Program-made: the position numbers and the translations under genes | In this document: positions 18,073 to 31,102 of the stretch, in pieces | How the letters are laid out: each line of letters starts with the position of its first letter | Numbering within the stretch: position 1 is the stretch's first letter | The notes under the pieces: generated by a model | Seen by the model: only the letters and a program-made list of their open reading frames with translations | What the model was told of the DNA's origin: nothing | Database searches by the model: none | Source of the DNA: Candidatus Kaiserbacteria bacterium RIFCSPLOWO2_01_FULL_50_24 | GTDB lineage: Bacteria; Patescibacteriota; Minisyncoccia; Phycocordibacterales; UBA2100 | Direction: 5' to 3' | DNA: 38,384 nucleotides | Assembly (NCBI GenBank): GCA_001783335.1 | Contig: MFLU01000003.1 | Location: 1-38,384, forward strand

Positions 18073-18146
18073 TGGGGGATCGTCTAACGGTAGGACAGCT
18101 GCCTTTGAAGCAGTGAATCTAGGTCCGACTCCTAGTCCCCCAGCCA
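18073..18146 (+). tRNA. tRNA-Gln (TTG anticodon), 3' CCA encoded
   Basis: Acceptor TGGGGGA/TCCCCCA, anticodon loop CTTTGAA, 3' G-CCA. Confidence 0.93.
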
Positions 18147-18182: not shown

Positions 18183-18219
18183 ACTGATCCTGAGGCGCTT
18201 GCGCCGAAGGGCAAATCCG

Positions 18220-18257
18220 AGCGTCGAGCGAGGAAGTACTGAGGCCAGCAGGCCGAA
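18220..18257 (+). repeat. 38-bp dispersed repeat, copy 1 (upstream of GIY-YIG ORF)
   Basis: agcgtcgagcgaggaagtactgaggccagcaggccgaa, identical to 30598-30635. Confidence 0.97.
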
Positions 18258-18273
18258 CGTTAAGGAACTAGTT

Positions 18274-18513
18274 ATGTATTTCGTTTACATATTGCATTGT
18301 AGTGACGGGACTCTTTACACCGGCGTGACCAACGACCTTAAACGCCGATTTGAGCAACATAAAAAAGGAACTGGCGGGAGCTATACAAGATCACGAACTG
18401 TTGAGCGCATCGTATATTCGGAAGAGGCACATGGCCGTGGCGCCGCTCTAAAGCGCGAGGTGGAGATAAAAAGATTGACACGACAAAAGAAGTTGAGTTT
18501 GATAAAATTTTGA
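18274..18513 (+). CDS. GIY-YIG nuclease superfamily protein (UPF0213-like)
   Basis: MYFVYILHCSDGTLYTGVTNDLKRRFEQHKKGTGGSYTRSRTVERIVYSEEAHGRGAALKREVEIKRLTRQKKLSLI. Confidence 0.92.
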   Translation: MYFVYILHCSDGTLYTGVTNDLKRRFEQHKKGTGGSYTRSRTVERIVYSEEAHGRGAALKREVEIKRLTRQKKLSLIKF

Positions 18514-29731: not shown

Positions 29732-31102
29732 ATGTCCAACTCTCCATGGGAGCGCGCGCAGAAGTTAGTACAGAATGCAGCAGCGCTTGCGGAAACGTCA
29801 CCGCATCTTCTAGCGGCGCTGCTTGTGTCCGACCGTACCGTAGAAGTATCCATCCCCGTAGAAATGGATGACGGGAGCCAGCGCGTATTTCACGGGTACC
29901 GTGTACAGCACAACAATATACTCGGAGCATACAAAGGTGGCATTCGGTATCACGAGAGCGTAGATATGGAGGAGGTAAAAGCACTCGCGTTTCTCATGAC
30001 GATGAAGTGCGCAGTCATTAATATACCGTTTGGCGGCGGCAAGGGCGGCGTGCGCGTAGACCCAAAGAAACTTTCGGCGCGTGAGCTTGAAGAGCTTACG
30101 CGCGAGTTTACTCGGAAGCTTTCGCTCGTCATCGGCCCAACGTTGGATGTGCCGGCTCCCGACGTGAATACCAATCCGGAGATAATGCGGTGGATTGCAG
30201 ACGAATATAAAAAAACGGTCAGTAGCCAGAAGCCGATAATCGGTAGTGCAGAACAACATCCAGAAGCCGTTGTAACGGGGAAGCCACTAGACGCGGGCGG
30301 AAGTGAAGGGCGAACAGAGGCGACAGGACTCGGGGGTTCGTATGCGCTCCAAGCGTTTTTCAAAGAACACGGAGAAGACATCCGCGATAAAACCGTTGCA
30401 GTGCAGGGATTCGGGAATGTGGGGCGGTGGGCCGCAGAGTCGTTGCAAAAAATGGGCGCGAAGATCGCGGCGGTTTCCGACTCTCGCGGCGGCATCTATA
30501 TTCCAGACGGTATTCCGGATATTGCGGCGGTGTATAAGTGCAAGAAGGCTAGCGGACTCGTCGCGGGATGTTATTGCATTGGGAGCGTGTGCGACCAAGC
30601 GTCGAGCGAGGAAGTACTGAGGCCAGCAGGCCGAATGTGCGACATCAAAAATCGCGAAAAAATGCGCGGCCATAACATTACGCCGGAAGAAATTCTTACA
30701 CTGCCGGTTGATATATTGGTTCCGGCGGCGCTTGAAGATTCTTTGACAGCTGGAAACGCGGAAAAAGTGCAGGCGAAATATATTTTAGAACTTGCCAACA
30801 GTCCGACGACGGAAGAAGCGGATGCGATTTTTGAAAAAAGGGGTGTCACGATCATTCCCGACATTCTCGCAAACGCCGGTGGCGTCCTGGTCAGTTATTT
30901 TGAATGGTATCAAAATATGCATGGTGAGCGCTGGAGCAAATCGGACGTGTTTGAAAAATTACACGCTTCCGTGGAGACGGCAGTGACGGAAGTCTTTCGT
31001 ACGGCAAAGGACAAGAGGATTTCTTCCCGCACGGCGGCGTATGTGGTGGCATTGCGGCGATTAAGCAGCTCAGCAAACCCAGCACCTTTCCGACATCGCT
31101 GA
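29732..31102 (+). CDS. gdhA: Glutamate dehydrogenase (Glu/Leu/Phe/Val dehydrogenase family)
   Basis: GYRVQHNNILGAYKGGIRYHESVDMEEVKALAFLMTMKCAVINIPFGGGKGGVRVDPKKLS, VVTGKPLDAGGSEGR, VAVQGFGNVGRWAAESLQKMGAKI, ANSPTTEEAD. Confidence 0.95.
   Translation: MSNSPWERAQKLVQNAAALAETSPHLLAALLVSDRTVEVSIPVEMDDGSQRVFHGYRVQHNNILGAYKGGIRYHESVDMEEVKALAFLMTMKCAVINIPFGGGKGGVRVDPKKLSARELEELTREFTRKLSLVIGPTLDVPAPDVNTNPEIMRWIADEYKKTVSSQKPIIGSAEQHPEAVVTGKPLDAGGSEGRTEATGLGGSYALQAFFKEHGEDIRDKTVAVQGFGNVGRWAAESLQKMGAKIAAVSDSRGGIYIPDGIPDIAAVYKCKKASGLVAGCYCIGSVCDQASSEEVLRPAGRMCDIKNREKMRGHNITPEEILTLPVDILVPAALEDSLTAGNAEKVQAKYILELANSPTTEEADAIFEKRGVTIIPDILANAGGVLVSYFEWYQNMHGERWSKSDVFEKLHASVETAVTEVFRTAKDKRISSRTAAYVVALRRLSSSANPAPFRHR
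30598..30635 (+). repeat. 38-bp dispersed repeat, copy 2 (inside gdhA, in frame)
   Basis: Identical to 18220-18257; flanked by TGTGCGAC at 30588-30595 and 30636-30643. Confidence 0.97.

Follow-up and report, generated by a model that had tools for sequence, protein, structure and literature searches.

A 48-bp in-frame insert in gdhA of a Candidatus Kaiserbacteria genome belongs to a dispersed family of small two-hairpin elements

In-frame selfish repeats in essential genes have previously been described mainly from Rickettsia, and also from Wolbachia. RPEs are dispersed, in-frame insertions of 100-150 bp in metabolic genes (PMC10969869, PMC3767692), and a CGTC tag has been reported at one end of the RPEs of R. 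conorii (PMC3733652). REPs carry GTAG or CGTC tags at the end of the stem-loop, and MITEs are 70-300 bp long with terminal inverted repeats of 15-30 bp (PMC3733652). PARCELs (palindromic amphipathic repeat coding elements) make up domains of tandem repeats, which often belong to membrane lipoproteins (PMC2996958). The window analyzed in this study, to which all coordinates refer, is a stretch of 38,384 nucleotides from a Ca. Kaiserbacteria genome. An initial annotation had interpreted part of its gdhA gene as a small dispersed element inserted in a central enzyme; this mobile-element reading is supported by the present analysis, in which other genomes were found to carry the element in other genes.

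The insert in gdhA

The features of the gdhA locus are as follows.
29732..31102, + strand: gdhA, glutamate dehydrogenase, 456 aa, with a 16-residue insertion (Pfam and alignment to relatives)
30588..30595, + strand: left TGTGCGAC, the ancestral target codons V-C-D (sequence and alignment of relatives)
30591..30638, + strand: copy of the 48-bp element (GCGACC...GAATGT), in frame in gdhA (covariance model, E=2.9e-16)
30636..30643, + strand: right TGTGCGAC, coinciding with the conserved family 3' end GAAYGTGCGAY (sequence and consensus)

GdhA contains the Pfam domains PF00208 (E=1.7e-69) and PF02812 (E=1.1e-55), and its reading frame is open across the insert over 456 aa, in agreement with the net in-frame insert of 48 bp that had been annotated. 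The local layout is ...GTG-TGTGCGAC-CAAGCGTCGAGCGAGGAAGTACTGAGGCCAGCAGGCCGAA-TGTGCGAC-ATC..., and relative to the empty gdhA site the net insert is equivalently 30596-30643 or 30588-30635. The 38-mer AGCGTCGAGCGAGGAAGTACTGAGGCCAGCAGGCCGAA is identical at 30598-30635 and 18220-18257; both this identity and the positions of the two TGTGCGAC octamers had been given correctly by the initial annotation. A 22-bp probe has exactly two matches, which are the two known sites, and none in 100 shuffles. In the whole genome (848,802 bp in 22 contigs), a pattern search allowing at most 3 mismatches found no further copy, and the covariance model likewise detected none beyond those in gdhA and at 18213..18260. 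An allele shorter by exactly 48 bp had been proposed as a check on the insertion, and the GdhA relatives that are alignable across the site (L003-L023 and L025) are without exactly these 16 residues. The uninserted relatives read GCYC-(I/V)-GSV-CD or a close variant, in which V-C-D is contiguous, with GTGTGCGAT and GTGTGCGATCTT as examples of the DNA at the uninserted site. The insert adds the residues QASSEEVLRPAGRMCD to GdhA and regenerates CD.

AlphaFold was applied to the window GdhA with 15 relatives, and the mean pLDDT was 87.9, with values below 50 for the insert and its margin (residues 285-301). The best solved homolog, 2tmg, has nothing that corresponds to this stretch. According to this prediction, the insert peptide forms a disordered loop, which is probably tolerated rather than functional.

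A second GdhA loop, located upstream of the insert (30217-30270), is hypervariable and exceeds that of the relatives by approximately 10 aa, and it contains a 10-bp direct repeat, CCAGAAGCCG, with 34-bp spacing (30226-30269). This loop was rejected as a copy of the 48-bp family, as a 24-bp probe taken from it has no second match in the genome. Different in-frame palindromic inserts were observed in the gdhA of G006 (L018, about position 2011), where CTGCCTGCCGGTAGGCAG gives LPAGRQG, and in the rsmH of G041 (L189), where the insert is GGTAGGCCGATGAGATCGACATCGGCAGGCC; several families of in-frame palindromic inserts seem to exist in the genus.

Family, fold and genomic distribution

The gdhA insert is a member of an undescribed dispersed family of structured elements, the consensus unit of which, RCGACCGAGCGNNGAGCGAGGAAGTACTGAGGCCAGCAGGCCGAAYGT, is 48 bp long and often followed by RCGAY. 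A search of the genome and its relatives for further copies, as the initial annotation had suggested, was productive: the covariance model finds 1 to 9 copies per genome in 23 of the 52 genus genomes. The window's own genome holds the two copies described. Copies are also present in G076 and G140 of the same order, and exact copies occur in one Vogelbacteria and one Yanofskybacteria record. In a phylum-wide model search, in which only 14 candidates were scored per genome, the window's own genome alone was matched, which does not imply absence elsewhere. No described Rfam family matches over the element, no exact match to it was found in viral contigs, and no account of a comparable family in CPR bacteria came up in literature searches of a partial library.

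Two hairpins are supported by covariation.
30595..30611, + strand: hairpin 1, CC-GA-RC-[GNNGA]-GY-GA-GG
30614..30640, + strand: hairpin 2, GUACU-GA-GGCC-[AGCA]-GGCC-GA-A-y-GUGC

In hairpin 1, columns 7-8 pair with 22-23 and columns 11-12 with 18-19, and the sequence suggests possible tandem G.A pairs between these two short helices. In hairpin 2, columns 26-30 pair with 47-52 and columns 33-36 with 41-44. Among 38 copies, 94% of the cells pair, and the cells with double changes number 44, compared with 8.7 +/- 2.4 in shuffles. Compensatory double changes are observed at 10 of 13 pairs (0 of 500 shuffles), the covariation signal is lost when the pairing partner is slid, and RNAalifold independently recovers ten of the covarying pairs.

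The octamer TGTGCGAC forms the 3' terminus of the family itself (consensus GAAYGTGCGAY) and is also the linker of 48-bp tandem arrays. Such arrays are present at L039, L070, and L104, and a 48-bp period is found in arrays of G009 and G030. Nested copies, in which the increment is 48 bp, occur in G046 (L095), G007 (L093), G021 (L096), and G030 (L099); they are self-insertions at a constant internal position, GAGCG^AGGAAG. The 8-bp target duplication proposed by the initial annotation is not general, because the octamer belongs to the element itself and the flanks match weakly, over 5 nt. When the flanks were tabulated as had been proposed, the 47 copies gave 134 matches over five columns with their own flanks versus 109 with shuffled flanks. 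For the 31 non-tandem, non-nested, non-orthologous copies, a weak excess was retained over 5 nt (82 matches versus 72.8 expected, p=0.014), but there was none in the three columns further upstream (p=0.17). Approximately 5 bp (RCGAY) thus tends to be common to both flanks, and the moving unit may be either 48 bp placed beside an RCGAY-like target or 43 bp with a 5-bp duplication. The left pentamer differs from the target pentamer in the nested copies (ACGAC versus AGGAA) and in the copy next to the tRNA-Gln of G046 (GCAAC versus GCCAC). Few copies have a relative close enough for proof of the empty site at the DNA level; at those of gdhA, ung, and the tRNA-Gln flank, the net insert is a multiple of 48 bp each.

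The second copy in the window lies in the following context.
18073..18146, + strand: tRNA-Gln(TTG), the 3' flank of which is an insertion hotspot of the family (copies in several genomes)
18213..18260, + strand: second element copy, intergenic between tRNA-Gln and the GIY-YIG gene (covariance model, E=6.5e-13)
18274..18513, + strand: small GIY-YIG nuclease gene adjoining the second copy (PF01541, E=1.8e-16)

The left flank of this copy is AAATC and not the consensus GCGAC. The element had been called non-coding, which requires qualification: of the frames of the consensus, two out of three are open in the sense direction, and every one is open in antisense. Copies within about 100 bp downstream of tRNA-Gln were found in G000, G009, G046, G019 (weak), and G021, where 0.014 are expected by chance, although shared ancestry of the sites may contribute to this number. 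The spacers between tRNA-Gln and the GIY-YIG gene are syntenic in G046 and G000; a single 48-bp unit directly after the tRNA-Gln of G046 is missing in G000, the copy of which sits elsewhere in the same spacer. The GIY-YIG gene was considered as a candidate mobilizer; it adjoins the second copy and is syntenic in G046 and G027, but nothing supports its moving the element. A motif scan found no such gene at the other loci, although it also overlooked the one in the window and is therefore not informative. As a separate observation, CTGAGGCGCTTGCGCCGAAG at 18190-18209 is similar to the element's 3' half (TGAG-stem-CGAA), and comparable half-elements recur 3' of tRNA-Gln in other genomes (L230 and L241). 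In a recurrent arrangement (G000, G046, and G027; L218, L230, and L241), tRNA-Gln is followed first by small hairpin repeats that form a mosaic and then by a small GIY-YIG gene.

In addition to the window gdhA, in-frame sense copies are found in ung, uvrC, and a PurL-like gene (all in G030), a gene of the RsmH/MraW family (G038), pyrG (G140), an epimerase gene (G007), and msrB (G036), and one in O-antigen ligase is common to G036, G038, and G046. By domain, the host-gene families are UDG, MraW/RsmH, CTP synthase, UvrC, AIRS (PurL-like), SelR, epimerase, and O-antigen ligase. A 611-aa ORF of Yanofskybacteria reads DND-RAKSEEVLKPAGRMYD-DND. The sense-frame peptide is conserved as RASSEEVLRPAGRM or PSVERGSTEASRPNV, and the independent insertions counted inside coding regions comprise nine in the sense and none in the antisense orientation. 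The ung product of G030 carries two tandem 48-bp units (GD-[16 aa]-[16 aa]-LERW), whereas its relatives read GD-LERW with the uninserted DNA GGGCGATCTTGA; each unit regenerated GD, as the gdhA insert regenerated CD. The RsmH and PyrG insertions are less clean, with net lengths of 8 aa and up to 24 aa rather than a tidy 48 bp, and no close ortholog was found for the empty site of the epimerase gene (L066). In O-antigen ligase, the element occupies identical codons in three species, and its stems differ by compensatory changes; judged from these sequences, the insertion is old and inherited. In G046, a second unit is nested in the first. Tgt- and PpsA-type ORFs have copies at their N-termini, and the copies upstream of clpP are antisense. 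In several genomes (L072, L075, L076, L089, and L106), msrB carries a copy at its 3' end, after which the final codons of msrB (INSVCLDLEEK) are nearly repeated in L075, L076, L089, and L106.

Movement of the element

The explanation that we consider probable is that gdhA received a copy of a structured, non-autonomous mini-element that occurs in Ca. Kaiserbacteria and some of its neighbors, is moved in trans, and is tolerated in the form of extra enzyme loops. It is supported by the empty sites, the spread of the family over many genomes, the covarying fold, the in-frame copies in genes of known families, the tandem and nested 48-bp units, and the low pLDDT of the insert. The 48-nt unit with its two hairpins would be mobilized by an enzyme and placed beside an RCGAY-like pentamer, possibly chosen as the target, which would be recreated on both sides. 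Insertions in enzyme surface loops would survive selection because the unit has the length of 16 codons and can be read through in two sense frames out of three, giving hydrophilic peptides; the surviving inserts would be nearly neutral extra loops, probably without function. In gdhA, the element would have landed in the V-C-D codons of such a loop and thereby added the 16 residues. Low copy numbers speak against this explanation, as do the small number of copies with an empty site provable in the DNA of a close relative, the RsmH and PyrG insertions with their irregular net lengths, and the flank duplication, which is weak once tandem copies are excluded. No mobilizing enzyme was found associated with the element when correlation with and adjacency to Y1 genes were considered. 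The different views of how the unit moves are alternatives within this explanation, not alternatives to the identity of the element, and their likelihoods overlap.

A possible, if somewhat doubtful, route is templated insertion during replication or repair, in which a strand switch at GCGAC-like microhomology copies one 48-bp unit from an existing, often tandem, copy and a return switch occurs at the next GCGAC, with no dedicated mobility enzyme. The targets do contain GCGAY (GTGTGCGAY in gdhA, GGGCGAY in ung, and ACGAC in L057), tandem 48-bp arrays are available as donors, and the failure to find an associated enzyme agrees with this route; on the other hand, copying alone leaves the compensatory upkeep of the two-hairpin fold unexplained, and the nested copies at GAGCG^AGGAA have little microhomology. 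Single-stranded DNA transposition of the IS200/IS605/REP type by a resident Y1 HUH transposase is rather unlikely. In its favor, the bottom strand has an NTCGY target on the 5' side of the element, which itself ends in GGTCGY and has subterminal hairpins, and Y1_Tnp matches are present in 45 of the 52 genus genomes, with seven in the window's own genome. However, the number of Y1 (HUH) transposases is not associated with the element copy number (Spearman -0.12, p=0.41), four carriers have no Y1 match, no Y1 gene adjoins an element copy among the matches listed, and the ends have no GTAG or CGTC tag. The copy-number correlation thus gives no support to a Y1 transposase as the mobilizer; neither its presence nor its number tracks the element.

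Two further explanations concern the nature of the insert. A functional structured RNA, i.e., a cis-regulatory or processing signal selected within genes, would account for the strong covariation, the sense orientation of all nine coding-region insertions, and the copies just upstream of clpP and near tRNA-Gln. We regard it as improbable, because the distribution is patchy, gene context is conserved at few loci only, the clpP copies are antisense, and the orthologous genes of most relatives are without a copy; the sense bias, moreover, may also be explained by the hydrophilic sense peptides. An assembly artifact or chimeric join at the 38-bp repeat could be suspected in a draft metagenome-type genome of 22 contigs with both copies on one contig, but the gdhA gene runs on without a break and in frame to either side of the insert, the neighbors of the other copy are syntenic in G046 and G027, and like insertions occur in many separate genomes, which makes such an error extremely improbable.

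Comparison with known systems

An unrelated and much smaller family in tiny-genome CPR bacteria would indicate that selfish DNA can repeatedly create protein segments, and its exact 48-bp steps, empty alleles, and covarying fold offer a clean system for studying movement and the usefulness of loops. For annotation, the motifs SEEVLRPAGRM or ERGSTEASRPNV in CPR proteins should be taken as element-derived. It is a tentative proposal, on which we place limited confidence, that this 48-nt CPR element, equal in length to 16 codons and among the smallest mobile units known, with a two-hairpin single-strand fold kept by compensatory mutation, moved by some enzyme and repeatedly adding peptide loops to core enzymes, is selfish DNA of a protein-coding class of its own, separate from that of Rickettsiales.

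Similar to MITEs, the element is small, non-autonomous, and able to fuse in frame with genes, but it has no terminal inverted repeats (its ends are RCGACC and ACRTTC), and with regard to the fixed-length target duplication of MITEs its flanks give a weak 5-nt signal (p=0.014). Mini-elements derived from IS200/IS605 have subterminal hairpins and insert 3' of a fixed target with no target duplication; the present family has hairpins and an RCGAY preference, and its duplication signal is ambiguous. As with REP/RAYT (Y1 tyrosine) elements, the copies are short stem-loop repeats, some of them within genes, in genomes that also encode Y1 transposases; unlike those elements, they lack the terminal GTAG/CGTC tag, none lies beside a Y1 gene, and their low copy number is unrelated to the number of Y1 genes. 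PARCELs are likewise palindromic, protein-coding, and arranged in tandem units, whereas single insertions in enzymes are found here. The closest resemblance in behavior is to the Rickettsia/Wolbachia palindromic elements, which are dispersed palindromic repeats in frame in unrelated housekeeping genes (PMC10969869, PMC3767692, PMC2996958). As in RPEs, a conserved peptide is encoded in a preferred frame, mostly in unstructured segments, and copies occur outside genes too. Unlike the RPEs of Rickettsiales, with their 100-150 bp, the unit of these CPR bacteria measures 48 bp, has two covarying hairpins, grows in exact increments of 16 codons, and ends in RCGACC...GAAYGT rather than in a CGTC tag. 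The family acts like RPEs but lies outside them in both size and end tag.
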